Below, piece after piece: positions 6,921-37,442 of a DNA stretch of 37,442 nucleotides. This DNA is from Halorientalis regularis (GTDB lineage: Archaea; Halobacteriota; Halobacteria; Halobacteriales; Haloarculaceae): assembly GCF_023698535.1 (NCBI RefSeq), contig NZ_JALJCL010000023.1:1-37442 (forward strand). The letters are read 5' to 3'. The position numbers and the translations under genes are program-made. The notes under the pieces were generated by a model. The model worked only from the letters and a program-made list of their open reading frames with translations, was not told the origin of the DNA and ran no database searches. Position 1 is the stretch's first letter. Every line of letters starts with the position of its first letter.

Positions 6921-8395
6921 ATGGAGGAGACTAAACGCGACAGTGAGGACGGCGGGGCGGCCGACACAGGGTTGCAGATCGACGTGGACGCGGCGGACGA
7001 CACCGTCCAGGCGATGTTCACGCTGTACGACGCTATCGAAGAGATGCTGACGACCGACGCGAAACAGACAACGGCGGACGTGGTACTCGACGCGGCCGTT
7101 GACGTTCCCGGCCTGGCACAGACGGGTATCCACTTTCACGATGCCGACGAGCGGTCGCTGGTGCCGGTGAGCTGGAGCGGGAACCTGGAGCGGGAATTCG
7201 GCGAGCCGCCCGCGCTCGGGCCGGACACTGAAGCCTGGTCCACGTTCGAGAACGGCGAGATTGTGAGCGTCGAGGATTACTGGTCCGACGAGGGTATCAA
7301 CGGACTCGACAGTACGTTCCGGAGCGAACTGATCGTTTCGTTCGGCGAGTACGGTGTCCTCCTCTCTGGGTCGCCAGAACCGCGGGAGTTCGAGGACACC
7401 GACCGGTCGTTTCTAGAAGTGCTGTGTGCGAACGCGGCCGACGCGATGAATCGGATCGAACGCGAAAATGCCCTCCACGAGCGTGAACAGCGAATCGACC
7501 GGCAACAGTCGTCGCTGACCGACCTGGTCGAGACGGTCCAGGACGGTGTGGAGTCGCTGTCGGACACCGCCACGGACGTCTCGCGCAGCTCGGAACAGAT
7601 CAGCGACCTGGCGGACGACCAAGCGGCGACGATGACCGACCGCGGAGGTGTCGGACATGAGCGCCGTCGTCGAGGAGGTCGAAGCCTCCAGTGATACCGC
7701 TCAGGAAGTCGCCGAGGAGGGACAGACTCTCGTCACGGAGACGAAAACAGGCCATCGCCGAAATCGAGACGACCATGACGGAGACTAGCGCGGAGTCCGG
7801 GAAGCTACAGGCCCAGATTGCCGAAATCGACGAAATCGTCGCGGTGATCGACGACATCGCCGAGCAGACGAACATCCTCGCGCTGAACGCGAGCATCGAG
7901 GTGGCTCGCGCGGGCGAGGCTGGCAGCCGGTTCGCCGTCGTCGCCGACGAGGTCAAATAACTCGCCGAGGAGACCGCAGAGCAGGCCGGCCAGATCGAAC
8001 GGCGCGCGACGCGTATCCAGGACAACACCGACGAAACCGTCGAGAAACTCGACGCCGCAGCCGACCAGGCACAGCAGGGGATGGACCGGATCGAACAGAC
8101 TAGAGAGCGGCTCGAGGTGATCGTTGAGCAGGCGACCGAGACTGCCGACGGGAACAGCGAAGTCGCCGCGGCCACCGACGACCAGGCACAGACCGTCGAG
8201 CAGATCGCACACATGGTCGACGATACAGCCGAGGCCGCCGACCGCGTCTCCACCGAGGTCGGCGAGATCGTCACCGCGAACGAGCGTCAGGTCGAGCAGG
8301 TCGACGAGATTCGGCCGACTCTCGAGCGCGTGCGAACTCGACTCGAAACCGGCGAGCCTACGACGAACACTGGCGTCGGAGACCACAGAGAGTAG
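6921..8395 (+). pseudogene. Soluble methyl-accepting taxis transducer (Htr), broken by two frameshifts and a stop
   Basis: The start (ATG 6921, preceded by CGGAGA) leads into a GAF-like sensor domain (about residues 30-175, ending in FLEVLCANAADAMNRIE), a coiled-coil linker, and the cytoplasmic signalling hairpin. The tip is plain in the third frame: [23 protein letters not shown] and FAVVADEVK. Three lesions break it. The frame shifts by one base near 7638, where DDQAATMT should run into [13 protein letters not shown]. It shifts again near 7749, where TETKT should run into AIAEIETTM. An in-frame TAA at 7958-7960 replaces what is normally a Gln codon after ADEVK. The remaining frame continues to 8395 with the second hairpin arm. 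Intact, it would pass a cytoplasmic signal to CheA. Three separate lesions argue for decay rather than a single sequencing error. Confidence 0.9.
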
Positions 8396-24425: not shown

Positions 24426-25404
24426 GGGCCTTGTTTAGACGGGCGACTCGATCAGTCAGAAAGCCGTGCACCTAGTGTTGCCTTGCTAGTATTTCCAACG
24501 AAGTACCAAATCTACCAGGAAGTGAAGCGGGACGGATTGGGTGTGCAAACCAGGACCTCCCGCTTCGCTGAGACGGTCGCATCGCTCTCAAGAAAAGCCG
24601 CCGCTGGCGCGCCAGCTCCGGCATACCGACCGGGGAAAGAGGGGTATGCCGACTGGGTAATTCCCGCGGTACAGGCGTTCAAAGAGCATCCCGGGCACGA
24701 CTACCGGAAGTTGATGGACGTGCTGCGAGAAATGCCGAGAGTTGCGGAATCACTCAGCCTGACGGTTGAAACGTTACCCCGTTACCTGATTGTGTGTGCG
24801 CGCAAGCAAGCGATTCCGATGAAGCGATGGCGGACGGTCCTCGACGCTTCGGTCGAACTGTACGAACTCGGAGATGTCCAGGCGCTCGACCAACCGGCGT
24901 GGATCGCGTCCAAGCGAGCCAGCACTACGCGAAACGGACGGATTACACGTTCGAGGCGGTGAAGACCACGCTGCTCATCGATCGTGAAACAAGTGCGATT
25001 CTATATATATACTCCTCGATGAAACAACCGCACGATACCCAAGTCGGCTGGCAGGTATTGGTGCGGAATCTCGACGAGTTGACGGCTGTGGCGGTCGATA
25101 AAGGATACGACTGGGAAGCACTTCGCACGAGGTTACGTGCTGAAAGTATCACACCGCTGATTCCGCAACGCGGCCCTGGTTTCCGAGGATGGGCGAGAAA
25201 CCTACTTATCCATGATCGGGCGTATAACCAGCGCTCGAACGCTGAATCAGTGTTTTTCGGCTTACGACAGCGATACGGTGAGACGCTATGGGCGAGAACG
25301 TGGTTCGGTCAATTCCGTGAACTTGTCATGAAATCAGCGGTGCGAAACATCGAACGCGTCATCGAGGGGGTAGACCGCTGAACGCTGGCGTCTAAACAAG
25401 GCCC
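24426..25404 (+). mobile_element. IS5-type insertion sequence (979 bp) with perfect 16-bp terminal inverted repeats
   Basis: The left end GGGCCTTGTTTAGACG (24426-24441) is repeated as its exact reverse complement at 25389-25404. Between them is one DDE transposase gene with a frameshift. The bases flanking the element (left CACGCTCT, right AAGGGACT) are not a repeat of each other, so the usual target duplication is missing. The right flank lies inside a TnpB gene and the left flank does not. This fits loss of DNA on the left side after insertion. The element has no other gene. Confidence 0.88.
24483..25381 (+). pseudogene. IS5-family DDE transposase, one frameshift
   Basis: The first frame gives VQTRTSRFAETVASLSRKAA, PAYRPGKEGYADWVI, DVLREMPRVAESLSL and VELYELGDVQALD. 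From about 24888 the continuation shifts to another frame: TGVDRVQASQHYAKRTDYTF, SMKQPHDTQVGWQVL, AVDKGYDWEALR, RSNAESVFFGLRQRYGET and RTWFGQFRELVMK. This is the ISH1-like branch of IS5. The first catalytic Asp falls at the break (QALD / expected DATGVDR), the second is in AVDKGYDW and Glu is in the RSNAESVFF region. One missing base near 24886-24890 explains the shift. IS5 elements sometimes use programmed frameshifting, but no slippery run is evident here. The true start is uncertain; TTG 24483 is a guess. Confidence 0.85.
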
Positions 25405-26466
25405 AAGGGACTGCATTCGCAGTCCAGTCAGAAAGTTCTCGAAGAGCTTTCTGAAGCGTTCAGTTCGTGGTTCGTCTCCGACGACGACCGGGACAATCCA
25501 CCGGGCTACCGCAAACGCAATTACTACGACAGCGATGGCAACAGAGTCCACGAAGAACATCCGCGCTCGACCGTGACGTGGAAACAGAAAGGCATCCGCC
25601 ACGACACGAAACACGACAAACTCCGTCTGAGCAAAGGCAAGAACCACAAAGACGGACACGATTTCATCCTCTGCGAATACCAGGCCCCACCAGAGATCGA
25701 ATTAGAGAAAATTCAACAGGTTCGGGCTGTCTACAATACTGGGAAAGCGCGGTGGGTGTTGCACGTTGTCTGCGAGGAAGAAATCGCCGCAGAGTCACCC
25801 GGCGAAAACACAGCTGGCGTCGATCTGGGCATCTGTAACCCTGCCGCCGTCGCGTTCCCTGACGACGCTCTGCTGTATCCGGGGAACACGTTGCGTGAAG
25901 ACAAGCACTACTTCCAGCAGGAAGAATACCAGACGGAAGGCGACCACGGCCCCAGTCAGACGGCACAGTGGGCGCGTGAAAAGCTTGCCCGGCGGAAAGA
26001 CCACTTCCTCCACGCCCTGTCGAAAGACATCGTTGAACGGTGTGTCGATCACGATGTAGGTACGCTTGTCATAGGCGACCCGAGTGGTGTTGATGAAGAC
26101 GACTGGGGGAGGCACGGCAACAAACGCCTGGATAATTGGGCGTACAAGCGGTTGATGAACCTCATCGACCACAAAGCTCGTGAGCGCGGTATCAAGGTAG
26201 AGATGCCGGATGAACGCGGGACATCATCCGCGTGTAGTGTATGCGGGCACGAGGATAACGACAATCGTGTTGAGCGTGGATTGTGGAAGTGTGACCGGTG
26301 CGGCGTGGTCGGGCATGGCGACGTGAACGGAGCCGACAACATCAGGCAAAAAACCCTAAGCGTGACTCCCCCACTCGGGGATAGCGATAACGGCTGTTTG
26401 GCCCAGCCACGCGTCATCCACTTCAGCCGGACTCGCGGATTCCAACCGCGTGCACCCGCCGAGTGA
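25405..26466 (+). pseudogene. tnpB: N-terminally truncated TnpB (IS200/IS605 RNA-guided nuclease)
   Basis: The open frame begins directly at the IS5-type right end with KGLHSQSSQKVLEELSEAF, which is an internal stretch of haloarchaeal TnpB; the preceding 60-80 residues are gone. The rest is intact. It has RuvC motif I in GVDLGICN (Asp), the GDPSGVDED segment, RuvC II Glu in MPDERGTSS, a zinc ribbon CSVCGHEDN ... CDRCG, and RuvC III Asp in HGDVNGADN. Internal starts such as GTG 25573 could make a fragment, but the lost N-terminus contains the recognition part, so nuclease activity is unlikely. TnpB proteins cut DNA with an RNA guide made from the element's right end. The 3' end runs into the right-end hairpin at 26500-26530. 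Confidence 0.9.
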
Positions 26467-26818: not shown

Positions 26819-27489
26819 CACTATGCAGAGGCCCGTCACGCGGATAAGACTTCGGTGCAGGACGAATTTGACCGATGCGTAGACTGGATTTTGCAGGAAT
26901 TTTCCTTGATCACATCTGACTGAGACCTGACCATTGATATACACCGCTATCTTTGTTCTCTAACTTTCCAGCCCCCCGAATTCGCCTGGGGACCCATGGG
27001 ACCCCACAGCTCGGTGTACGCAATCAACAGTCGTACACGACGATGTCGGTGTTCTGTTACTGAGAAGTGGTTAACTCTATTGTATAGCTATAAAGTATAG
27101 CTATAGTATTCACATCATCCGCAGTATGAGCTACTACTGGAATTCGAACCCTATGTTCGAGTGATCAAGTCTGAACGAGGCGGTTCCAGACTGCTACGGG
27201 ATATCTCCCAAAATTCGATTGGTTCAAGGGAGGTTGAGGAACGTCAGGCGTCGCTCTCAGAACATTATTCGACTGAGTAACACTGTCAGACGACCGGGAA
27301 GGGTGATTGTGATGAGGGCCCCGAGATTGGCTTTGAGTCCACGGAGTCGTTTTTCGAGTCTGTGTGCGGGGCTCGCCAGGTCCGTCTTCGGCAACCGATC
27401 CGTGACGGTGGAGCGTGTGACACTTGACTCCTGACCCCAGATCACAAGTTCGCTTCGACGAGTAAAAAGCCGCGCAAACCACAGTAAAA
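26819..27489. other. Long intergenic region, AT-rich, with palindromic repeats
   Basis: No gene with recognisable content. Short reverse-strand frames (27445-27257, 27509-27165) do not look like proteins. An imperfect palindrome TGGGGACCCATGGGACCCCA lies around 26988-27007. Two copies of an 11-bp palindromic motif lie at 27082-27105 (separate entry). A TATA-like AGTAAAAAG at 27461-27469 serves surE. Confidence 0.55.
27082..27105. repeat. Paired 11-bp palindromic repeats, second copy of the parA-upstream motif
   Basis: GTATAGCTATA occurs at 27082-27092 and 27095-27105, 13 bases start to start with AA between. The inner TATAGCTATA is a perfect palindrome. The same pair (spacing 13, CA between, one mismatch) is at 37136-37159 in front of parA. 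Both sites also have GGTTAACT nearby (27069-27076 and 37110-37117). A candidate ParA-partner binding site or centromere. Confidence 0.7.
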
Positions 27490-28332
27490 GTGATGAACAT
27501 CCTCCTCACGAACGACGACGGGATCGACGCGCCGGGCCTGCGAGCGCTGGCGGCGGCCCTCGAAGCGATCGGCGATGTGACCGTCGTGGCCCCCGCCCAG
27601 AACCAGAGCGCCGTCGGTCGGGGGCTCTCCTATGGCCGGATGGGGCCGGACGGATCCAACGGCGGTGCAGTCGGCCTCGGTGACGGTTCGGACGATCCAT
27701 TCACCGTGACGATTCCCCACGAATCACACGAACTCGGGTACGCGATCCATGGGACACCCTGTGACTGCGTAATCCTCGGCGTCGACACGTTCGAGCCCGA
27801 CGTAGTCGTCGCTGGATGCAATGCAGGAGCGAATCTCGGGATGCACGTCTTGCCTCGGTCTGGAACCGCCAGCGCCGCCACCGAGGCGGCATCGCTCGGC
27901 GTCCCCGGCATCGCTGTCTCGATGGACGTCCTCGGACTGGATCGGTCAGCGCTCGAACCGGCCGATTTCGAACGAGCGTCCGTGATCGGACGCAACGTCG
28001 TCGACAGGGCACTCAGTGCGGATGTGTTCGACGCCGTCGACTACTTCAATGTCAACGTCCCGCGACCGGACCGGTCTGTCGAGGGGGTCGCGATCACACA
28101 CCCGACAGCACAGTACGATATGCACGCCGACCTCGCGGACGGTCGCTTCAGCATCCACAACCCGCTGTGGGCCGAGATGGCACAGGGAGACATCCCGGAC
28201 GAGGACGGTAGTGACCGACGGGCGGTGCTGGATCAGCGGGTGAGTATCTCACCGCTGACTCTGCCACAGAGCGGGATCGACGATGGTATCGTCGACAGGC
28301 TTGACGACTGTTTCGACGACGTTGCAAATTGA
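27490..28332 (+). CDS. surE: SurE survival protein, 5'/3'-nucleotidase
   Basis: The product (280 residues from GTG 27490, or 279 from ATG 27493) is a SurE nucleotidase that removes phosphate from nucleoside monophosphates with a divalent metal. Metal-binding Asp-Asp is in ILLTNDDGIDAPG, Ser in AQNQSAVGRGLSYGR, and Asn in VVAGCNAGANLG. Substrate-loop residues VPGIAVSMD and YFNVNVPRPDR are as expected. A TATA-like AGTAAAAAGC at 27461-27470 gives a leaderless start at either codon. The stop TGA (28330-28332) is made at the point where an IS605-type hairpin begins, so the C-terminal residues may have been altered by that insertion. The overall length is normal, and the enzyme is probably active. 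It stands alone, not in an operon. Confidence 0.95.
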   Translation: MMNILLTNDDGIDAPGLRALAAALEAIGDVTVVAPAQNQSAVGRGLSYGRMGPDGSNGGAVGLGDGSDDPFTVTIPHESHELGYAIHGTPCDCVILGVDTFEPDVVVAGCNAGANLGMHVLPRSGTASAATEAASLGVPGIAVSMDVLGLDRSALEPADFERASVIGRNVVDRALSADVFDAVDYFNVNVPRPDRSVEGVAITHPTAQYDMHADLADGRFSIHNPLWAEMAQGDIPDEDGSDRRAVLDQRVSISPLTLPQSGIDDGIVDRLDDCFDDVAN

Positions 28333-28358
28333 ACCGCCTCGGGGTCAAGCCCCGAGGC
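28330..28358 (-). mobile_element. Solo IS200/IS605-like right-end hairpin after surE
   Basis: GCCTCGGGG (28336-28344) and CCCCGAGGC (28350-28358) form a perfect 9-bp stem with a 5-base loop. On the reverse strand it is followed by GGTTCAAT, like the GGTCAAT that ends the TnpB element at 26530. The junction would be at about 28329. No TnpB motif is found to its right, so it would be a solo end or a palindrome-associated (non-autonomous) element. A factor-independent hairpin for surE is the alternative. Confidence 0.45.
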
Positions 28359-28495
28359 AATCGGCCTGCTCAGCCTGTAGAGGGCGATCTTCATCGATCG
28401 AGTTTCTGGTCGGTTTGCGGTCATGCGAGTTCGGCCATCCACTTGAGAAAATCGTGGCATTGCTACCGCCGAGTCACGAATGGTCCGGCGTGTGG

Positions 28496-28939
28496 CTACT
28501 CTTTCGGGTTCACCGGCCCGATGTACTCGTTTTTCCAGGAATCGCCCTCGCGCCACTGCCAGTAGTAGTAGCGATACTCGGTATCGGCCGTTTGCTTGGT
28601 CGTCTTGACCGTAATGTAGGCGCCGCTGCTTGGCACGTCTTCGTAGTCGCTCGGGTCCGTCGAGAGACCGCGCTCTTCCAGCTGTTCCCGCTCTTCCTCG
28701 TCGATCTCGTCGTCCGCCCGCCGTGTTTCCAACTCGGACTGGCGTTGGTGACGCTTCCACGCCGCGAGGTCGCTCGCGTACGTTGCTACCGCTTCCAGCC
28801 GGTCCGGCGATTGGTTCTCCAATGGGTCCAAGAGATAGCTCGGTAGGTTCGGCGGTGACGGTTTGGGCTGTGGGTTGTCCGCTATAGTTACCCCACACTC
28901 CGCTGATTGTTCAATTTGTGGGGTAACGGTTCGAACCAT
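28496..28939 (-). CDS. DUF6788-like haloarchaeal plasmid protein
   Basis: A 147-residue protein (150 if GTG 28948 is used). The C-terminal half carries AYITVKTTKQTADTEYRYYY followed by WQWREGDSWKNEYIGPVNP, a pattern I recall from a small family on haloarchaeal plasmids and proviruses (DUF6788-like). The middle is a charged helix (QSELETRRADDEIDEEEREQ), and the N-terminus is Pro-rich. Aromatic repeats in YRYYYWQWREG suggest a nucleic-acid- or protein-binding beta sheet, but the function is unknown. Its first codons overlap the inverted-repeat pair at 28887-28927 (the arms encode T-V-T-P and G-V-T-I segments). It points away from orc1 and its product may act in plasmid maintenance (inference). 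Confidence 0.82.
   Translation of the reverse strand: MVRTVTPQIEQSAECGVTIADNPQPKPSPPNLPSYLLDPLENQSPDRLEAVATYASDLAAWKRHQRQSELETRRADDEIDEEEREQLEERGLSTDPSDYEDVPSSGAYITVKTTKQTADTEYRYYYWQWREGDSWKNEYIGPVNPKE
28887..28927. repeat. Inverted-repeat pair, left copy flanking the origin
   Basis: GTTACCCCACA (28887-28897) and its reverse complement TGTGGGGTAAC (28917-28927) are separated by 19 bases. The same arms, 20 bases apart, recur at 31651-31692 on the other side of orc1. This copy lies within the 5' end of the gene at 28496-28939. Confidence 0.8.
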
Positions 28940-29000
28940 CGGTGCCACGAGTTTCTGAATTCATCGAGCGGTGTCGATCCCAGTGGGTCCATACCCCCGA

Positions 29001-29020
29001 ACACATCGATAGAGGTGTGT
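29001..29020 (+). repeat. ORB-like repeat 1
   Basis: ACACATCGATAGAGGTGTGT. It is variant 2 (GGTGTGT end) and lies downstream of orc1, furthest left of the array. Orientation forward. Confidence 0.82.
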
Positions 29021-29164
29021 CTCGTCTCGTGGTTTTGCCGTCCGTCTGTCGATACTTGCGAGGTCAGTTCATCGTCGAAAGAGGTCTATTGACAAAGAAG
29101 TCACGCGTGGCTCTGATTGTCGAAGTCAAAAATACTCGACTTTGAGCCGTTATTTCTCGATATT

Positions 29165-29184
29165 ACACATCGATAGAGGGGTGT
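29165..29184 (+). repeat. ORB-like repeat 2
   Basis: ACACATCGATAGAGGGGTGT, forward. Same sequence as repeats at 29280 and 31451. It is the consensus form. Confidence 0.85.
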
Positions 29185-29279
29185 GAAGTCCTTCGTCGGC
29201 CGTAGTCATTCTATTGAGTCGTCGTTCGACGGATTGTTTCATTCGAATGAATTGTGGGAAATGACAGCACCCACGGTGG

Positions 29280-29299
29280 ACACATCGATAGAGGGGTGT
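29280..29299 (+). repeat. ORB-like repeat 3
   Basis: ACACATCGATAGAGGGGTGT, forward, 66 bases before the 3' end of orc1. The spaces between copies (144 and 95 bases) are irregular. Confidence 0.85.
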
Positions 29300-29365
29300 C
29301 TCTCGAGGAATCGGGGCCGCTGAAGATAGCGGTTGGATCTGGGTAGCGGATTGAAAACCGTGAAC

Positions 29366-30862
29366 TCAGGATTGGTTCCGGAGTTGTGCTTTAACCACCG
29401 TCTGGACTTCTTCTGGAGAGACCATGTCGATGCGGGAGTCCTCCCGAAGCGTATCGAGAATGGTATCAGGGCGTTCGGCAAACTGGAATTCGAGGAACAT
29501 CCCCGAACTGGGGCCATGGCTGCGGCGCTCGAAGTCAACCAGTGAGTAGGTCGTCAACTCTTTCATCTTGTTGACGTAGGTCTCCTGGTGGTACTGGTCA
29601 GTCCCGATCGCGTCTGTGAGAAATTGGTAGACTTGATAGCCGGTCGTACTGCGCGCGGTGCCGTTTTCGGTCTCGTTCGCGACAGTCGCGGTCGCGTACA
29701 GACAAAGCTTCTTCTGTGTGCTGATCCCGCGGATGACCTCGAGGACGCGGTTTTTCTCGACTTTTTCTTGTGCGTTCCGGACGTGTTCCTCACGGACTTC
29801 GGAATCGCCTTCGCGCTCGGCGAGTTCGCCAGCTACCCGCATGAGATCGATCGCCTTCCGTGCATCACCGTGGGTCTGTGCCGCAAACGCCGCAGCAAGC
29901 GGGATGACGTCGTCACTGAGGACATCGTCGTAGAACGCGTCTTGGCGGCGCCGGAGGATCGCCTTGAGCTGGTTCGCGTCGTAGTCGTCGAAGTGGACGT
30001 CTTCCGGAGTGAACGAACTCAGTGCCCGGCTCCCCACCGCCTCCATCATCTTCGTGTCGTTCGAAATCGCGACGACCGAGATGTGCGCGGAGAGGTCGTC
30101 GATAGCTCCAGACCGTGAGAGTTGATAGAGCAGCCGTGAGAACGCCGGGTCCTGTTTGTCCCGGCGACCCACGAGCATGTCCAGCTCGTCAAGCACGAAG
30201 ACCACGGAGTCGAAATTCTCGCTGACGATACGGTACAGTTCGTCCCACTTCTCTTTCGTCGCGACTCCGTGTTTGGGTACCTCGACGGAGACACCAGCTT
30301 CATCGGCGGCTCGCTCGGCCAGTTCGTAGACGGCGATGCCGAGGGTATCGAGGTCCTGGCAGTTCACTTCGACGGTCCCGAACCTGATATCGCGTTGCTC
30401 ACAGATGTTGCTGATGTTCTTACAGACCGCCTTCGTGATCAGGGATTTGCCCGTCCCCGACGGGCCGTAGAGAAAGAGATTCGGCGGTCGGTTGTCACCG
30501 AGCGCGACGCGCAACATCTTCGTAACTTCCTGGAGTTGGGTGTCCCGACCGACGATTCGATCCTCCTCGACGACGTAGTTCGGATCGAGCAAGGACCGGT
30601 CCCGGATCAGCCCTTCCTGTTCGTCGAACTCCAACAGCATTTCTTCGATTGACTCCGACTCGTTGTCGCTGGGGACTTGATCCGAATCCGATTCGGTTGG
30701 ATTCGCCGATTCCCCATTGATCGGTGGGGTCGATTGATCAGCCTCGTGGTCCCCATCCTCAATATCCGATGACCGATCGGACCGAACAGATGGTGACTGC
30801 TCTCCGGACTCCGAATCATCATCGATGGTCTCGGAGCCGTCAGTATCCATGTCAGCACACAT
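29366..30862 (-). CDS. orc1: Orc1/Cdc6 replication initiator
   Basis: A 498-residue (or 494 from ATG 30850) AAA+ initiator. An acidic, disordered N-terminus (about 1-90) precedes the ATPase: Walker A GPSGTGKS (133-140), Walker B VFVLDELDML (221-230), sensor 1 SNDT, and sensor 2 HGDARKAIDLMR. A winged-helix DNA-binding domain follows at about 390-498 (RVLEVIRGISTQKK ... YSLVDFERRSHG). In haloarchaea each Orc1 recognises its own repeats by the winged helix and loads MCM at the origin. The gene faces left and is surrounded by eight ORB-like repeats, one of which (30885-30904) sits directly in its own promoter, so autoregulation is likely. The long acidic N-terminus is often seen in plasmid-borne copies. 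Family call is certain; the cognate pairing with these repeats is inference. Confidence 0.97.
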   Translation of the reverse strand: MCADMDTDGSETIDDDSESGEQSPSVRSDRSSDIEDGDHEADQSTPPINGESANPTESDSDQVPSDNESESIEEMLLEFDEQEGLIRDRSLLDPNYVVEEDRIVGRDTQLQEVTKMLRVALGDNRPPNLFLYGPSGTGKSLITKAVCKNISNICEQRDIRFGTVEVNCQDLDTLGIAVYELAERAADEAGVSVEVPKHGVATKEKWDELYRIVSENFDSVVFVLDELDMLVGRRDKQDPAFSRLLYQLSRSGAIDDLSAHISVVAISNDTKMMEAVGSRALSSFTPEDVHFDDYDANQLKAILRRRQDAFYDDVLSDDVIPLAAAFAAQTHGDARKAIDLMRVAGELAEREGDSEVREEHVRNAQEKVEKNRVLEVIRGISTQKKLCLYATATVANETENGTARSTTGYQVYQFLTDAIGTDQYHQETYVNKMKELTTYSLVDFERRSHGPSSGMFLEFQFAERPDTILDTLREDSRIDMVSPEEVQTVVKAQLRNQS

Positions 30863-30884
30863 TCAGGCAATGATGAAAAGTGTT

Positions 30885-30904
30885 GCCCACCTCTATCGAA
30901 GTGT
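30885..30904 (-). repeat. ORB-like repeat 4, degenerate, in the orc1 promoter
   Basis: The reverse-strand sequence differs from variant 2 at three positions. It lies 23 bases upstream of the first ATG of orc1 (30862), overlapping the probable promoter. Confidence 0.65.
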
Positions 30905-31024
30905 GATTGCCCGATAGTGGAACTAGTACTCTCGAATTGAGCAGGTCTCTTCTCTTGATGCAAAACATCTCCTGAGGGGCCGACGAAGTGATCCACGGTG
31001 ATCAGGGAAGGACTCTGGACTCCC

Positions 31025-31044
31025 ACACCCCTCTATCGATGTGT
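31025..31044 (-). repeat. ORB-like repeat 5
   Basis: ACACCCCTCTATCGATGTGT on the forward strand, the exact reverse complement of the consensus. It marks the left border of the AT-rich zone. Confidence 0.87.
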
Positions 31045-31450
31045 TTGAGGGATCAAGAGGGTGGGGGGTGAGAGTGCAGTCGATAATCGGGATTGGACTC
31101 AAAGAACCGTCATTTAGAGACTGCTAAGTTATGGTTCTCGGCAATACAAGAATTCCGCAATAGAGTACTCCAGCGGATGAAGCGGTTATTCCTGCTGCTT
31201 TCTCCCATATCTTTCTATCTTCTTCTAGCTAGCTAGGAACTAGACACACACACCCCTTTATCGAAGTGTTCGATGTGTTCGACTCATAGTGATGATCAGC
31301 TGTAAGAGCGAGATCTATGAATGGCGAGTCCACGCTTCTTTCGTCGGTGTAGGATCTCTCGGTTGACTACCTCTTCCTGGCCTTCTCGTCGGTTCTTCTT
31401 TCGTAGTATCCATCGCGCGACCATTCAGCCCCACGCCCATTCCTTGTGGA
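31045..31450. other. Putative origin core with AT-rich unwinding zone
   Basis: This 406-base stretch between inverted ORB-like repeats 5 and 7 contains no gene. Its part from about 31100 to 31260 is rich in A and T with pyrimidine runs (TTTCTATCTTCTTCTAGCTA, 31212-31231). Repeats on either side point toward each other in the way seen in haloarchaeal origins. The short frames here (31545-31315, 31633-31367) are read through the repeats and are not genes. Confidence 0.75.
31250..31269 (-). repeat. ORB-like repeat 6, diverged
   Basis: Forward-strand sequence ACACCCCTTTATCGAAGTGT, with two mismatches to the reverse complement of the consensus. It lies inside the AT-rich zone. A half-site-like CGATGTGT follows at 31271-31278. 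Confidence 0.7.
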
Positions 31451-31470
31451 ACACATCGATAGAGGGGTGT
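31451..31470 (+). repeat. ORB-like repeat 7
   Basis: ACACATCGATAGAGGGGTGT, consensus form, forward, on the right border of the AT-rich zone. Confidence 0.87.
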
Positions 31471-31582
31471 CGGTGTATCCAACTTCTTCTCTAATCGACG
31501 ATCCACGATCGATACAATCCAGGAAGTCCTTGAGTTTCTCTCCAATTACCTCTCTCGAGCACTGCCGAGGCGCAGAAAGAAT

Positions 31583-31602
31583 ACACATCGATAGAGGTGT
31601 GT
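31583..31602 (+). repeat. ORB-like repeat 8
   Basis: ACACATCGATAGAGGTGTGT, variant 2 form, identical to repeat 1 at 29001. The first and last members of the array are thus the same variant. Confidence 0.85.
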
Positions 31603-31650
31603 CTGGTTTGGCGGTCGAACTGAACTCCCTCAAACCAACCGGATTCGTGC

Positions 31651-31692
31651 GTTACCCCACATGTTCAGATATAGTCTGATCTGTGGGGTAAC
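31651..31692. repeat. Inverted-repeat pair, right copy flanking the origin
   Basis: GTTACCCCACA (31651-31661) and TGTGGGGTAAC (31682-31692) with 20 bases between. Same arms as 28887-28927. The spacer sequence is unrelated, so only the arms are conserved. It lies 125 bases before the ligase start and next to ORB-like repeat 8. Confidence 0.82.
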
Positions 31693-31816
31693 TTTCAAAG
31701 ACCCACAGCCTCGGAACCCGCCCTGAATGCATTCCTTCGAGTGTAATCCTTTTCGACGTTGCGAGCTAGTGAATCGAGACTGGAAATTAACCACTTAGAA
31801 TCCATAGTAGGCTCTG

Positions 31817-33499
31817 ATGGAATACGCCGAGTTCGCGACGGTCTGTGACCGGTTAGCAGCCACCGACGCGGATCTTGAGCAGGTCCAAATCCTAGCAGAC
31901 TGGCTGACCGAAACGGATTCGGACACGTTAACGCTGGTCGTTGGGATGGTTCGTGGGAAGGTATTCGAACCGTGGGAGACGGCCGAACTCGGTGTCTCAT
32001 CGAGCTTGACGGTGGAGGCCATCGACACAGCAACGGGAGTCGGGACTGATCAAATCGAAACGGTCTGGAGCGAGACTGGTGACCTCGGGGATGCCGCCGC
32101 CTGGGCAGTCGAACACGAGACACAGCAATCGTTGTTCAGTGAGCCGCTGACACTACAACGAGTCTACGAGACACTTCGAGATCTTGCCGACTTCACCGGC
32201 GAGGGGAGCCAGGACCGCAGGGTCAGTGAAGTCGCGGGGCTGATCGCCGACGCCAAGCCGGACGAAGCCAGATACGTGGTGCGCACGGCGCTGGGACATA
32301 TGCGACTTGGCGTCGGTGACGGCACGATGCGCGACGCCGTCGCGTCGGCATTCCTCGACGGGAGCGAGGCAGCCAGCGATGCGGTCGAACGCGCCCATCA
32401 GGTGACGAATGATTATGGCCTCGTCGCGACGACCGCTCGGGACGATGGTCGCGACGGCCTCGCCGATCTCGATGTCGAGTTGTTCAGGCCGGTTCAGATG
32501 ATGCTCGCGAAGAAGGCCGAGGGACTCACCGACGGTATCGATGATGTCGCCGAGGAGGCCGACGACGCACACATGGAGTACAAGTACGACGGGGCTCGCG
32601 TCCAGATTCACGTCGACGGCGACGAGATTCGCGTGTACACCCGCCGACTCGAAGACATCACGATGCAGTTCCCGGACGTGGTCGAGGCAGTCGCCGAGCA
32701 CGTCACGGCGGATCGGTGTCTCCTCGATGGCGAACTCGTCGGGTACGACCCGGAGACGGGTAATCCGATTCCATTCCAGGAGTTCTCGCGGCGCATCAAA
32801 CGCAAATACGACATCGCGGAGATGGTCGAACAGATACCGGTTACACTCTACCTGTTCGACATCCTCAGTCACGAGGATGACTCGCTGTTCGAGATATCGC
32901 TCCGAGATCGGCTCGCTCGACTCGACAGCGCGTTCGAGCCCAGTGAGGGTGTAATCGAACGCGCTGCCCACCGAGAATTCGACACGGAGGGGACAGCGAA
33001 CGATTTCTATCAGGAGGCGCTCACGGCCGGACACGAGGGAGTGATGCTGAAGAACCTCGCAGCGACGTACCAACCAGGCGAGCGGGTGGGCTACATGATG
33101 AAGGTGAAACCCGTAATGGAGCCACTCGATCTCGTCGTGACCCGGGCCCAGTGGAGCGAGGGGCGTCGGAGCGACTATCTCGGTCGGCTGTTCCTCGGCT
33201 GCCGGGATACTGATGGCGAGTTCATCGAAATCGGTCGTCTCTCGACCGGGTACACCGACGAGGAACTGGCCGCACTCACCGACGAACTGACGGACCTGAC
33301 CGTCTCAGAAGACGGTCGGATGGTCGACCTCCGACCCGAGGTCGTCCTGGAAGTCGAGTACGAAGAGATACAGCAGTCCCCCGAGTACGGCTCCGGGTAC
33401 GCTCTCCGATTCCCGCGATTTCTCGACGTGCGCGATGATCTTTCGCCGACAGATGTTGACTCGATCGAGCGCGTCGAGAGCCTGTATGAGGACCAGTAA
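31817..33499 (+). CDS. lig: ATP-dependent DNA ligase
   Basis: A 560-residue archaeal-type ligase of normal length with an N-terminal DNA-binding domain (about 1-220), adenylation domain and OB-fold. Nucleotidyltransferase motif I has Lys256 in MEYKYDGARVQIH, which takes the AMP; motif Ia-like RRLEDI, motif III DGELVGYD, motif IV EGVMLKN and motif V YMMKVKP are all visible. The enzyme joins nicks, such as those between Okazaki fragments. The start at ATG 31817 has an AT-rich AAATTAA about 27-33 bases upstream. It is followed, 66 bases later on the same strand, by the beta-CASP exonuclease gene; the two probably act together. The ORB array and an inverted-repeat pair lie just upstream. Base use is less GC-rich than the left part of the window. 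Confidence 0.97.
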   Translation: MEYAEFATVCDRLAATDADLEQVQILADWLTETDSDTLTLVVGMVRGKVFEPWETAELGVSSSLTVEAIDTATGVGTDQIETVWSETGDLGDAAAWAVEHETQQSLFSEPLTLQRVYETLRDLADFTGEGSQDRRVSEVAGLIADAKPDEARYVVRTALGHMRLGVGDGTMRDAVASAFLDGSEAASDAVERAHQVTNDYGLVATTARDDGRDGLADLDVELFRPVQMMLAKKAEGLTDGIDDVAEEADDAHMEYKYDGARVQIHVDGDEIRVYTRRLEDITMQFPDVVEAVAEHVTADRCLLDGELVGYDPETGNPIPFQEFSRRIKRKYDIAEMVEQIPVTLYLFDILSHEDDSLFEISLRDRLARLDSAFEPSEGVIERAAHREFDTEGTANDFYQEALTAGHEGVMLKNLAATYQPGERVGYMMKVKPVMEPLDLVVTRAQWSEGRRSDYLGRLFLGCRDTDGEFIEIGRLSTGYTDEELAALTDELTDLTVSEDGRMVDLRPEVVLEVEYEEIQQSPEYGSGYALRFPRFLDVRDDLSPTDVDSIERVESLYEDQ

Positions 33500-33565
33500 C
33501 TCTTTTCGCACTAACTTCTCAGGAAGGGCAGAATGGTTTTGCTGTCGCCACCCTAAGAGCTTGCA

Positions 33566-34561
33566 GTGACGACCGTTCGGCACACAGACGGTATCGAGGT
33601 TGAGCTGCCCGACGGCCGGGTCGTCCACGCCGATGCGTCACGGCCAGATGGCGACATCGCGGTCTGCAGCCACGCCCACGGCGACCACCTCTACTCGGAA
33701 GCCCCAGATTCGATGGTCTGTTCGGAATTAACGGCGGCACTCGCGGGCGTTCGTCGTGACGACGCAGCCACTCCGAGCACCCATCCTGATATCGAGTTAC
33801 TCGATGCGGGACACGTGCCCGGGTCCCGAGCGACGCTGATCACTTCCAAGGACACCGAACACGACGAGACCGTCCGCATACTATACACCGGTGACGTGTC
33901 AACGCGAGATCGTTTTTACCTCGACGGTTTCCAACCGGTCGACGCTGACATTCTCGTGGTCGAGGCGACCTACGGCACGCCGGAGTACGTCTTTCCGCCA
34001 CAGGCCGAACTCGAAGCCGAAATCGTCGACTGGTTCGAGGATACAGCCGACCAGCCGGTGATCTGTATGGGGTATACGTTGGGGCGAGCCCAGGAAATAC
34101 AGCGCCTTGCACAGCGGGCCGGAAGATCGCGACTGTTGGTCACTGATGCCATCGCGGAGATCAATTCTGTCGTCGAAGCTCATCTCGACGTTGATTTCGG
34201 GGCACAGCCGTACAACGCAGCAACTGATCTGTCGGCCGGCGATGTCCTCGTTTTGCCTGGGCAGACAAACTCCCTCTCGTTTGTCGACCAGTTGCGGGAA
34301 TCGAGCAACGCGATCAAGGCTGGGTTCTCGGGCTGGGCGATCGATAGCAGCTTCAAATTCAGGGGTGATTACGACGAAACGTTCGTCCTCTCCGATCACT
34401 GCGACCACGAAGAACTGCTCAACCTCGTTCGCGGTGTCGATCCCGAACAGGTCTACGTCCAGCACGGCGCCGTCGACGAGTTCGCGTCGTACCTCACCCG
34501 GGAAACTCCATATCGAGCCCAATCACTCCAGCAAAATCAGTCCACACTTGACGATTTTTGA
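33566..34561 (+). CDS. Ligase-associated metallo-beta-lactamase/beta-CASP exonuclease
   Basis: A 331-residue MBL-fold nuclease from GTG 33566. The zinc motif is SHAHGDHLY (about 35-43), and the later Asp/His set includes ILYTGDVSTRD (about 95-105), DAGHVPGSRA and VLSDHCDHEE near the C-terminus (the beta-CASP B/C region). The MGYTLGRAQEIQRLA segment is characteristic of the beta-CASP helix. In haloarchaea and bacteria homologues sit beside ligase genes and are thought to trim DNA or RNA ends before ligation. Substrate preference cannot be told here. No separate TATA box is obvious, so it may be co-transcribed with lig, 66 bases upstream. Confidence 0.9.
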   Translation: MTTVRHTDGIEVELPDGRVVHADASRPDGDIAVCSHAHGDHLYSEAPDSMVCSELTAALAGVRRDDAATPSTHPDIELLDAGHVPGSRATLITSKDTEHDETVRILYTGDVSTRDRFYLDGFQPVDADILVVEATYGTPEYVFPPQAELEAEIVDWFEDTADQPVICMGYTLGRAQEIQRLAQRAGRSRLLVTDAIAEINSVVEAHLDVDFGAQPYNAATDLSAGDVLVLPGQTNSLSFVDQLRESSNAIKAGFSGWAIDSSFKFRGDYDETFVLSDHCDHEELLNLVRGVDPEQVYVQHGAVDEFASYLTRETPYRAQSLQQNQSTLDDF

Positions 34562-34674
34562 CTAGTCTGGGTCGCTGCACAATTAGCGAGCTTTTGATTT
34601 CCAATTCGAATCTGTCATCCGAACAAGTGCTCTGCCGGAACATATTGGAACTAGGAAGAACAACTACCAATATT

Positions 34675-34944
34675 GTGAGTAGCTACACCCCCCCGGAGGA
34701 AGACAAAACTGAGGGGAGTGAAACGACTGAAAATAGGAATATTAACACTGACCGGACGCTTGAGACGGTGGATGGGCTCAGTCGGCGGGACAAAGGAATC
34801 GCGATCATTGCCATGGCACTCGCAGCTGGCGTTATCGCTGCACTCGCGTTTGGACATCTTGTGCCTGACTCTGAATTTGCCGAAGTAGTCGCTCGGTGGC
34901 TCCGATCCATTGGAATCGATTTAATTCTCTCGCAACGATTGTGA
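34675..34944 (+). CDS. Small acidic-tailed membrane protein (copy B)
   Basis: This 89-residue paralogue of the protein at 566-865 starts at GTG 34675 with MSSYTPPEEDKTEG. It keeps the same order: acidic N-terminus, GLSRRDKG, one transmembrane helix (IAIIAMALAAGVIAALAFG), LVPDSEFAE and WLRSIGID. The C-terminus is about ten residues shorter. A TATA-like CATATT at 34641-34646 lies 29-34 bases upstream, so it is probably leaderless. The frame stays open back to 34558, but the homology starts at 34675. Conservation of the N-terminus despite base-level divergence suggests selection. Not an operon member; function unknown. Confidence 0.82.
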   Translation: MSSYTPPEEDKTEGSETTENRNINTDRTLETVDGLSRRDKGIAIIAMALAAGVIAALAFGHLVPDSEFAEVVARWLRSIGIDLILSQRL

Positions 34945-35050
34945 CGTAGCGATATTTGGGAAGCCAAATCGAATCTATGAGACACCTTCTTTGAGACCCT
35001 ATCGACCGCGTTTACGCAGCGAAGATCAAATACTCCGGTAAATCTCGCTC

Positions 35051-35647
35051 TCACGAGTCGTATGATAGTGGATCCTGGAGGCCATTCCTAACATCCCGGT
35101 GGATTGCGAGCGTATATCCCGCGTTAGTCAAATGCGTAATCGATTGTTGTGCGTACGATTGGCTGACTGCCCAGTAGCTTCCCGTCCACTCTCGCTTACT
35201 CGTTTCCATCTCCTTGATATCCTCTTTCGTCTCGTAGGGACTGTCGAGTTCGATTTTCCCGCCTGAAATATCAACATAGATGATATCAGCATCTTCTGTC
35301 GCGTTTTCCGAATCGACCTCTTTGATCTCTTCGGCCGTAGCTAGTAGATACAGCGCCATCTCTTCTTTCGGTGGCCTCGGATCTGTTTGTAACTCAGCAA
35401 GGTGGTTCTCATATGTCTCAAACAAATCCTCGACCGCGTCTTGATCGTCAGTTACTGTCTCCGCACGCCGTCGAAGCATCGTCAACACACCGGGCCGACC
35501 TCTAGCATTAACCTCAGCGGCGAGGACCGCCTCGATCTCGTCGAGCGAATCCAAGAGCAAAACTCTCGCTCGGATGAGATCTGGATCGGGCGTGTCCAGA
35601 TATTTCACTGGATTGGGGGCAGAATCCCCAGATTCTGTCGGTGTCAT
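35051..35647 (-). CDS. Unknown haloarchaeal plasmid-type protein
   Basis: A 198-residue protein. The first half is helical and acidic (VKYLDTPDPDLIRARVLLLD, LDEIEAVLAAEVNARGRPGV, then MLRRRAETVTDD). The second half has ADIIYVDISGGKIELD and ends WTGSYWAVSQSYAQQSITHL and IHRDVRNGL. It is not from a family I recognise. No membrane segment, signal peptide or catalytic motif is visible. The position upstream of the parA operon's 3' end, on the same strand, suggests a role in replicon maintenance, but this is only context. No TATA is evident at the usual distance before ATG 35647. Confidence 0.7.
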   Translation of the reverse strand: MTPTESGDSAPNPVKYLDTPDPDLIRARVLLLDSLDEIEAVLAAEVNARGRPGVLTMLRRRAETVTDDQDAVEDLFETYENHLAELQTDPRPPKEEMALYLLATAEEIKEVDSENATEDADIIYVDISGGKIELDSPYETKEDIKEMETSKREWTGSYWAVSQSYAQQSITHLTNAGYTLAIHRDVRNGLQDPLSYDS

Positions 35648-35827
35648 TGGACTGGTAGAACTTGTCTGTGGTTCCGTTCCGATTACTCTGGAAGTATGAC
35701 TTGGCGTATTGTTAATATTTGGACCGGTGTGTCAGAAAAATCCCGATTTCTTTGAGGATATATGGATGTCTGTAGCCCAATAGACTGTTTCAATATTCCC
35801 TACATCCGAACCGCTTGAACCACCTTC

Positions 35828-36256
35828 TCAGTCCCAGCCATACCCCCACTCCTCGAGCTTTGCTTCGAGGAGATCGGGGTGTTCCTGAGCCACCTCGACG
35901 GCGGCTTCCATCACGTCCGTCCGATAGACGTTCTCGCCGAACCGATCCTCGAGTTCGCCGACCAGTTCCGGAATCCCGTCTTCGATTTCGTCCCGGAGGA
36001 AGATCGGCCGCTGTTGTCTGCCGTCTTTGACCGAATCTCGGGCGTAGATGTAGGGGAGACGGCTTGCCTCTGAACCGTTATCGTCGTCGGTGCCAGGGGC
36101 ACTCGACTCCTCCGCTGCGCCTCCGGTTGTGGCATCTTGTGACGATTCCGTCTCCGGGTCGTTTGTCGCAGATTCTCTTGACTCGGTGTCCGTGTCAGTG
36201 CCCGTTTCCGAGACGGTGTCTTCCGCGAACGGGTCGTCGGTTGAGCCTTGCTTCAT
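35828..36256 (-). CDS. ParA-partner protein (acidic adaptor)
   Basis: The 142-residue protein has a disordered acidic N-terminus (about 1-65, rich in Thr/Ser/Asp/Glu) and a folded C-terminal part, LPYIYARDSVKDGRQQRPIF, then DEIEDGIPELVGELEDRFGE and NVYRTDVMEAAVEVAQEHPD. Small acidic genes with this ending follow parA on many haloarchaeal plasmids, as I recall. The ATG (36254-36256) overlaps the parA stop region by four bases, so translation is coupled. It likely binds the centromere or acts as ParA's adaptor in place of ParB; no HTH or ParB motif is visible. Inferred from synteny, not demonstrated. Confidence 0.8.
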   Translation of the reverse strand: MKQGSTDDPFAEDTVSETGTDTDTESRESATNDPETESSQDATTGGAAEESSAPGTDDDNGSEASRLPYIYARDSVKDGRQQRPIFLRDEIEDGIPELVGELEDRFGENVYRTDVMEAAVEVAQEHPDLLEAKLEEWGYGWD

Positions 36257-37092
36257 GCTGGGACCTCCGTCTGGAGTCGGATGTGTTCGGCGAGGTCGTC
36301 GATCTTCTCCAGCGTTTCAACCTCGTGGTCTCGCTTGCGGTCACGATGCTCCTCGACGTAGCGGTAGGCTGTACATTGCTCTGCCCAGCAGCCTTCCAGC
36401 ATCGACGAGCGCTCGCGCAGCGTCACCGGGATGTCCCAGCCATCCTCCTGGAGTGTTTCCAGGAACCGATCCTGGTCGTTCATCCCCTTGTACCGGTTGG
36501 GAACGACTGCCAAGACGCCGACTTTGATATCGAGATTATCTTCAAGCCCGCCGACGAGCTGATCGAGTCCCTGCACTGACTCGTATCCCTTCCCCGAGGG
36601 CTCGAAGGGAATTACCACGTGTCTGGTAGCGTGTATCGCGTTATGCAGTTTAATATCGGCCGTCGCCGGCGGATCGACGATCAGCGTGTCGTATGTCTCG
36701 TGAACGCCCGCTTCTCTGAGTACTCGCAACAGCTGCTTGTTGGGGTTAAACGTCTCGCCGAAGTCCGCGGCCTCCTCCTCCCGACGACGTAGGTGCTTCG
36801 AGGCGTACTCGAGGATGTTGTGTGCCGGAACGATATCGATCCCCTCGCTCGTTCGGATCAGGTCCTCGACCGGTCCGCGCGGCCGATCAATCATATGTCG
36901 AAGCAGACTATCCGCTTCCGAGTCGTTCCGCTCGTCCGCGACGTCCAGGAGGTGTGAGAGAGATGCCTCCTGGGTGTCGAGATCGATGACGAGTACGTCA
37001 CGGCCGGCACGCACCTCCGCTTTCGCCAAGTTTGCGGCGAGTGTTGTTTTCCCCACACCGCCTGCCTCGCTGTATACCGTGTACGCCAACAT
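36253..37092 (-). CDS. parA: ParA/Soj-type partition ATPase
   Basis: A 279-residue deviant-Walker ATPase. The P-loop reads YSEAGGVGKTTLAANLA (residues 7-23), with GGVGKTT at 11-17 and Ala10 where the usual signature lysine (KGGVGKT) sits. The Walker A' region is VLVIDLDTQEASLSHLL (about 34-50), and YDTLIVDPPATADIKLHN gives Walker B (about 134-151). The change at the signature Lys is common in haloarchaeal ParAs as I recall. It may change dimer or sandwich formation. The protein should bind DNA non-specifically and move the replicon with its partner. ATG 37092 has TATA-like sequence at 37115-37122, and the palindromic repeats at 37136-37159 sit just upstream, suggesting autoregulation. Confidence 0.95.
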   Translation of the reverse strand: MLAYTVYSEAGGVGKTTLAANLAKAEVRAGRDVLVIDLDTQEASLSHLLDVADERNDSEADSLLRHMIDRPRGPVEDLIRTSEGIDIVPAHNILEYASKHLRRREEEAADFGETFNPNKQLLRVLREAGVHETYDTLIVDPPATADIKLHNAIHATRHVVIPFEPSGKGYESVQGLDQLVGGLEDNLDIKVGVLAVVPNRYKGMNDQDRFLETLQEDGWDIPVTLRERSSMLEGCWAEQCTAYRYVEEHRDRKRDHEVETLEKIDDLAEHIRLQTEVPA

Positions 37093-37114
37093 ACGCGATA
37101 TGTGGCGGCGGTTA

Positions 37115-37122
37115 ACTATAAA
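37115..37122 (-). promoter_or_regulatory. TATA box of the parA operon
   Basis: The reverse strand reads TTTATAGT, 23-30 bases before ATG 37092. It lies between the start codon and the repeat pair at 37136-37159. Confidence 0.6.
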
Positions 37123-37135
37123 GGTAAGTCAGACG

Positions 37136-37159
37136 GTATAGCTATACAGTATAGCTAGA
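37136..37159. repeat. Paired 11-bp palindromic repeats upstream of parA
   Basis: GTATAGCTATA (37136-37146) and GTATAGCTAGA (37149-37159) are 13 bases start to start. The pair lies 14 bases beyond the parA TATA box, a place for an operator that an activator or repressor would use. The twin is at 27082-27105. Confidence 0.72.
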
Positions 37160-37315
37160 CTAGCCCGATAGTTCCATTTCACCTGATTGATGTTGGCAGC
37201 GACTCCAAAATAGATTCTCCAGTGAGATCCTCACGCTTGCCGATCTATTCGGTTCTGTCGGATCCCATACCTAGCTGGACCAGCAATCTGCACTATCGAT
37301 ACGGACCAGCTGGAA
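37160..37315. other. Spacer between the parA control region and an IS
   Basis: No gene or clear repeat was seen in these 156 bases. Confidence 0.5.
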
Positions 37316-37442
37316 GGCTGTGTTGAATCGCCATACTGCGATGGAATTCACTGTTTCACAGCCCGCTTGATGTTATAGACGACACACATCAGAGCGATTT
37401 CTCGGAACTCACGGAACCACGAACGCGCTCGCACGGCGAAGC
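37316..37442 (-). mobile_element. Left end of a second IS5-type element, cut by the window end
   Basis: A transposase C-terminus lies at 37348-37442 on the reverse strand, and outside it a GGCTGTGTTGAATC stretch (37316-37329) may be the terminal inverted repeat. The other end is not in the window, so the element boundary is estimated. Confidence 0.6.
37348..37442 (-). CDS. IS5-family transposase, C-terminus only
   Basis: The reverse strand gives FAVRARSWFREFREIALMCV followed by VYNIKRAVKQ and TGA (37348-37350). Arg-rich sequence leading to W-F/Y-R/G-E-F-R-E and ending V-Y-N-I-x-R-A-V-K is the C-terminal end of IS5-group DDE transposases. The gene continues beyond the window. Different from the ISH1-like transposase at 24483, whose corresponding end reads RTWFGQFRELVMKSAVRNIE. 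Confidence 0.85.
   Translation of the reverse strand, partial: FAVRARSWFREFREIALMCVVYNIKRAVKQ

Follow-up and report, generated by a model that had tools for sequence, protein, structure and literature searches.

A 13-bp repeat array upstream of haloarchaeal parA as a candidate centromere and operator of a type Ib-like partition system

Background

In the window analysed here, the whole of a 37,442-bp contig (C15) from a 4.03-Mb haloarchaeal genome, Halorientalis regularis, with Halorientalis persicus as the closest named relative, a gene for a ParA-type ATPase (parA) is preceded by a pair of palindromic motifs with a period of 13 bases, and the same pair recurs about 10 kb away. An initial annotation took both sites for candidate operators and centromeres, and the question is whether this is indeed how the replicon is partitioned. 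Comparison with related loci supports that reading, since the array to which the pair belongs follows the operon of parA and its partner gene (57 of 61 loci), abuts the promoter, is nearly absent elsewhere and co-varies with the partner protein. We therefore consider it likely that the locus partitions a haloarchaeal megaplasmid or secondary replicon, working in the manner of a type Ib ParA system. The open-licence literature searched contained no account of 13-bp iterons at haloarchaeal ParA loci, nor of a centromere or partner family for them, and an earlier account elsewhere is possible; the run of 13-bp repeats upstream of haloarchaeal parA is apparently undescribed so far.

The features at the core of the locus, by position in the window, are as follows.
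36253-37092, minus strand: parA, an open reading frame (ORF) for a 279-aa ParA-type ATPase without an N-terminal helix-turn-helix (HTH); Pfam AAA_31 7.6e-19, CbiA 8.2e-16
35828-36256, minus strand: partner gene, 142 aa, proposed centromere-binding protein; 4-bp overlap (ATGA) with the parA stop codon
37106-37131, minus strand: two further in-register units forming the parA core promoter, TGACTTACCTTTA TAGTTAACCGCCG, containing GGTTAACT at 37110
37132-37157, minus strand: the two best-preserved 13-bp units, TAGCTATACTGTA TAGCTATACCGTC, overlapping the plus-strand pair at 37136-37159
37158-37315, minus strand: degenerate outer array, clearer in relatives, ending where an insertion sequence (IS) has inserted
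27069-27107, no strand assigned: distal three-unit cluster, GGTTAACTCTATT GTATAGCTATAAA GTATAGCTATAGT, a candidate satellite parS with a counterpart upstream of surE in H. persicus

Paired motif and repeat array upstream of parA

The motif GTATAGCTATA occurs twice with a 13-base period at 27082-27092 and 27095-27105, both copies being exact, and again beside the parA promoter, where the copy at 37136-37146 is exact and that at 37149-37159 (GTATAGCTAGA) carries one mismatch. The sequence, coordinates and spacing reported initially are correct, but the pair is not the whole element: the unit is 13 bp long and the pair belongs to a longer array. Similarly, GGTTAACT had been described as an additional motif close to each pair, and its positions hold, as it is found in the window only at 27069 and 37110, 13 and 26 bases ahead of the first unit, respectively. 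It is not a separate element, however; comparison of TAGTTAACC with TAGCTATAC in the same register identifies it as a further degenerate unit.

Within the window, 11 matches to GTATAGCTATA with up to two mismatches were counted, against 1.1 expected, and none of 100 shuffles reached this number, in agreement with the claim that the recurrence is unlikely by chance. Scoring with a position weight matrix (PWM) gave 40.3 and 35.8 for the two window pairs, the maximum in 20 shuffles being 11.6. Genome-wide counts were obtained by pattern searches. Allowing up to three mismatches, the pair at 13-bp spacing was present at three places in 4.03 Mb (27082, 37136 and position 245 of contig C29), and the reversed control pattern at none; all three places are in the par region. 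The single palindromic unit GTATAGCTATAC was confined to the same three places at up to one mismatch, and at two mismatches gave dispersed matches whose frequency was not above that of the control.

When the region ahead of parA is written in lines of 13 bases, the promoter reads TAGCTATACTGTA TAGCTATACCGTC TGACTTACCTTTA TAGTTAACCGCCG; the TATA-like sequence TTTATA occupies 37122-37117, some 25-30 bp ahead of the parA ATG. The promoter-core units (GTCTGACTTACCTTTATAG) are identical in the loci L021-L023 and recognisable in distant relatives. Since the TATA-like element lies inside the 13-bp register, the proposed partner-binding run overlaps the parA promoter. The pair is where this degenerate 13-bp array ahead of parA is best preserved.

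Two further features mark the interruption of this array in the source genome.
37308-37315, no strand assigned: 8-bp target-site duplication, AGCTGGAA, with its other copy beside the IS end on C29; recognised from the junctions and the uninterrupted homologue L022
37316-37442, plus strand: IS end, splitting the array and closing the contig, with the terminal repeat GGCTGTGTTGAATC at 37316-37329

Contig C29 (3.5 kb) starts with the opposite terminal repeat of the IS; the second copy of the 8-bp duplication comes next, and the array resumes at bases 128-287 of the contig, where the third pair of the genome is located (245-269). The joined flanks of C15 and C29 were identical at 514 of 550 bases to the metagenome-assembled genome LUM.70 (L022), in which the region ahead of parA is uninterrupted. 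As C29 matches the other flank of the IS that ends the window, the third pair is part of the array ahead of this same parA; most likely, the IS has split a longer repeat region in the source genome, and the assembly does not bridge it. The visible end of the IS (window 37316-37442, C29 bases 1-127) is similar to the C-terminus of an IS5-type transposase.

Conservation of the array among haloarchaea

A non-redundant set of 61 haloarchaeal parA loci was examined for periods of 6-30 bp over the 500 bp that precede parA. The strongest period was 13 or 26 bp in 57 of the 61, and elsewhere in the same loci in only one (Haloarcula hispanica pHH400, L039). For most individual loci, the 13-bp period had a z of about 5-14 relative to dinucleotide-preserving shuffles, and no dominant 13-bp signal was seen in the regions upstream of eight other ParA/MinD/ArsA-type genes of the source genome. 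In pHH400, the array (7261-7560) lies directly downstream of the partner gene, and an integrase gene occupies the upstream side of parA. The contigs of L067 and L072 start within 300 bp of parA on its upstream side, which truncates the array region, and records of this kind can conceal an array.

In 13-base lines, the parA upstream DNA of relatives appears as degenerate units that are clearest by the promoter and fade outward, in many relatives extending well over 200 bp, some 20 or more units past the promoter. A fixed-register consensus per locus was blurred by register shifts within the arrays and was not used as evidence. The unit type differs by lineage, being near TAGCTATACNGTA in Halorientalis, of the TAGCTAACT type in H. 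marina and TCATTGNNTGTGT-like in Halobellus; the unit sequence drifts with the C-terminal domain of the partner while the 13-bp spacing stays constant. Similarity of array profiles was correlated with identity of the partner C-terminal domain (rho 0.74), with a partial r of 0.43 once ParA identity had been removed, and such co-variation is expected if one binds the other. In the genomes G279 and G141, searched with their own units, array pairs were confined to the par locus, namely to the array itself.

ParA and its partner protein

The gene parA is present in all related loci (50-98% identical), and in nearly all of them it is followed by a partner ORF overlapping by 4 bp, which constitutes a conserved parA-partner operon. 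The window ParA resembles the small ParAs of type Ib systems in having a whole-length ParA/AAA_31 match, a Walker A motif from residue 9 and no N-terminal HTH, and its match to NCBIfam ParA_partition (3.5e-18) is below the family cut-off. It is slightly longer than the 200-250 aa quoted for such ParAs (PMC9178275). Its Walker A reads SEAGGVGKT, without the signature lysine (residues 1-15 encoded at 37048-37092), and the eight other ParA/MinD-type loci checked in the source genome read KGG. A near-invariant GCW..QC segment was also found near residue 235 in the readable ParAs.

The partner has the N-terminus MK.G..DPF in 48 of 48 sequences; a disordered linker connects it to a C-terminal domain of helices. 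In the structure model, residues 14-76 have a low predicted local distance difference test score (pLDDT), and the model of the C-terminal fragment, with high pLDDT, consists of an unpaired segment and helices at 24-41, 47-60 and 62-71. Conserved residues of the C-terminal domain include R73, R80, T113-D114 and E117-A118. The succession of a basic segment and two helices, about 18 and 14 residues long, is reminiscent of a ribbon-helix-helix (RHH) domain. No match to ParB, which carries HTH and CTPase domains in ParB-CTPase/Spo0J systems, was found for this 142-aa protein. Homologues of the partner were found in 179 of 293 genomes of the source's order (59 of 87 genera), none was found outside that order in a phylum-wide sample of 295 genomes, and the viral contigs searched contained no relative.

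Distal units

As initially described, the copy at 27082 is intergenic, between a decayed Hsp20 gene and surE. The distal cluster precedes surE by about 385 bp; seen from the main array it is about 10 kb away, on the far side of orc1 and the origin repeats (listed below). In H. persicus, where the gene order from parA to surE is the same, a pair is found at the corresponding place upstream of surE in intergenic DNA that aligns poorly, and the retention of the pair in such DNA argues for function. A second distal pair is located 3.8 kb further out. In total, the 4.9 Mb searched contained two array pairs and two intergenic distal pairs, all four on one 37-kb contig. The best PWM matches outside the arrays of L023 and L024 were, on inspection, not real unit clusters. 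As most of the relatives examined yielded no satellites, the distal sites seem to be restricted to this lineage. The simplest reading of the distal clusters is that they are satellite centromere sites around the origin, the alternative being an operator of the neighbouring gene.

Replicon carrying the locus

Two features between the array and the distal cluster relate to replication.
29366-30862, minus strand: orc1/cdc6 initiator gene, TIGR02928 7e-128, 88% identical to the orc1 adjoining parA on plasmid pHOS300
28999-31603, no strand assigned: replication-origin repeats of the ACACATCGATAGAGGGGTGT type, flanking orc1 on both sides

The origin repeats are located at 28999-29021, 29163-29185, 29278-29300, 31449-31471 and 31581-31603, with an inverted one at 31024-31044 and weaker copies in addition. 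Plasmid pHOS300, carrying the orc1 of 88% identity, is that of Halorientalis sp. IM1011; a second orc1-like match in the source genome was 41% identical and has counterparts on the main contigs of congeners. The window also has an additional copy of an ATP-dependent DNA ligase gene (31817-33499); the two other ligases of the source genome are 59% and 47% identical to it, the latter matching the ligase on the main contigs of congeners. ParA relatives are present on 180 plasmid records. The orc1 identity, the extra ligase copy and the plasmid-borne ParA relatives make it probable that the window comes from a megaplasmid or secondary replicon and not from the main chromosome; two congeners have the surE relative on the chromosome, and the assignment therefore goes no further than probable. 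Together, orc1/cdc6, the inverted origin repeats and the nearby lig and surE copies form a compact replication/partition block common to H. persicus. Further out, a remnant DDE transposase followed by a TnpB-type gene (IS605 OrfB, Cas12f-like domain) occupies 24794-26466, adjoining the decayed Hsp20 gene.

Alternative explanations

The alternative that survives best is that the units are an operator only, autoregulating parA, with the distal cluster serving as operator of another gene and neither having a role in segregation. The best-preserved units do abut the TATA-like element, the promoter core itself is in register, and the distal site upstream of surE, like the distal sites of H. persicus, precedes a gene. 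However, an array extending some 20 or more units past the promoter is far beyond the needs of an operator, the pHH400 array is downstream of the operon, and the distal clusters are away from core promoters and have different neighbouring genes. We regard this explanation as improbable.

If the 13-bp array were instead part of the origin, bound by Orc1/Cdc6 or a Rep protein, the proximity of orc1 and origin repeats in the window would be accounted for, as would the position of the array between orc1 and parA in pHOS300. The origin has its own repeats around orc1, however, of the ACACATCGATAGAGGGGTGT type and different from the TAGCTATACNGTA-type array, and the array does not have the character of origin recognition boxes (ORB). 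It also accompanies the parA-partner genes where no orc1 is annotated nearby (pHmuk01, pHTIA and pHSR-Bgl01), and its sequence drifts with the partner, which makes this very unlikely.

An archaeal segregation system of the SegA/SegB type, with palindromic SegB sites, must also be considered, since SegB belongs to the RHH proteins and its palindromic motif near segAB is 13 bp long (PMC12284271), and the best units here are near-palindromic with a 13-bp period. Both systems have an archaeal ParA, an archaea-specific partner (predicted here to bind DNA) and palindromic sites just upstream of the operon. In contrast, the SegB consensus is TCTAGA-S-TCTAGA, with chromosome-wide, mostly intragenic sites in Sulfolobales (PMC12284271), whereas the array here is contiguous, intergenic and confined to the par locus, and a profile of 19 partner sequences gave no meaningful match to PDB chain sequences, so that no sequence homology of the partner to SegB is apparent. 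This explanation is hardly tenable. Finally, chance A+T-rich palindromes or dispersed mobile repeats, suggested by the location of the motifs in A+T-rich intergenic DNA, can be dismissed in view of the counts (no shuffle as high, three places in the genome versus none for the reversed control) and of the 13-bp period kept across many genera.

Comparison with known partition systems

Returning to the partition reading, the locus is similar to the type Ib systems TP228 ParF-ParG-parH and pSM19035 delta-omega-parS in having a small HTH-less ParA, a small centromere-binding protein (a putative one here) encoded downstream and short repeats arrayed ahead of the operon and reaching the promoter (57 of 61 loci), where it would act as both centromere and operator; a flexible N-terminus with a conserved basic residue is also shared. 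It differs in that the units are of 13 bp, not heptads as in pSM19035, that the partner has no detectable sequence relation to solved or catalogued families, that ParA has Ala for the signature lysine, and that satellite clusters are located about 10-14 kb away in this lineage. Another archaeal plasmid system, AspA-ParB-ParA of Sulfolobus pNOB8, likewise uses a Walker-type ParA, but it comprises three genes, including one for a ParB adaptor, and a single AspA site, a 23-bp palindrome (PMC5120986), in contrast to two genes and a 13-bp array here. Loss of the signature lysine is rare and has a precedent in McdA, which reads SGGQGKT (PMC9178275); that ParA-type ATPase is, however, a cyanobacterial protein positioning an organelle (the carboxysome), with an unrelated partner and no centromere.

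Several observations weigh against the assignment. Ala replaces the signature lysine in 48 of 48 readable ParA homologues (EAGGVGKT/S in 47, EAGGVAKT in one), which departs from the deviant Walker A KGGxxK[S/T], and the system is for this reason called type Ib-like and not filed as a strict member. The partner has no sequence match in Pfam, NCBIfam, PHROG or PDB. A Foldseek search with its full-length model gave no matches, and the C-terminal fragment gave only non-significant RHH-like ones, headed by the RHH domain of PrpA (E 4.9) and including ParDE1/ParD (E about 5-9.5). No clear upstream array was found in L081, L090 and L097, that of L026 is weak, and in L039 the array is downstream only. 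Shared ancestry accounts for part of the co-variation between array and partner, and satellites were found neither in G279 and G141, searched with their own units, nor in the flanks of several further loci.

Proposed function

In the mechanism that we propose, the partner would bind the 13-bp units via its C-terminal domain, probably an RHH fold, and binding to the array would both assemble the partition complex and repress parA, giving the array its centromere and operator roles. The flexible N-terminus with its invariant MK.G..DPF would contact nucleoid-bound ParA and trigger ATP hydrolysis, with the replicon following the ParA gradient. In TP228, Arg19 in the disordered N-terminus of ParG stimulates ParF (PMC5393062); by analogy, a basic finger in the disordered N-terminus of the partner may activate the ATPase. 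With less certainty, the distal units could be satellite parS sites adding partner-bound DNA around the origin, possibly useful in the source genome, where the main array is split by the IS. For ATPase activation, the ParB of pSM19035, an RHH protein, requires four or more contiguous repeats (PMC9499535), so that the split array with its satellites is an interesting natural experiment.

A bolder extension is offered tentatively and is, in our view, rather unlikely to hold in full: that these loci represent a ParA subfamily without the signature lysine, together with an undescribed centromere-binding family, in which the invariant lysine of the N-terminal MK.G..DPF may provide in trans the catalytic or dimer contact that is missing, the two acting haloarchaea-wide on a 13-bp iteron centromere of drifting sequence and fixed spacing, with origin-flanking satellites in some replicons.

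Implications

Megaplasmids are numerous in haloarchaea. The locus provides a candidate centromere and a candidate centromere-binding protein for them, across at least 59 genera, and the 13-bp period upstream of parA is a simple rule to locate the partition site in most genomes. Segregation and incompatibility of archaeal plasmids thereby become directly testable in model haloarchaea, and the array is a possible stability element for haloarchaeal vectors. How a ParA-type ATPase would work without the signature lysine is a mechanistic puzzle that these replicons present.

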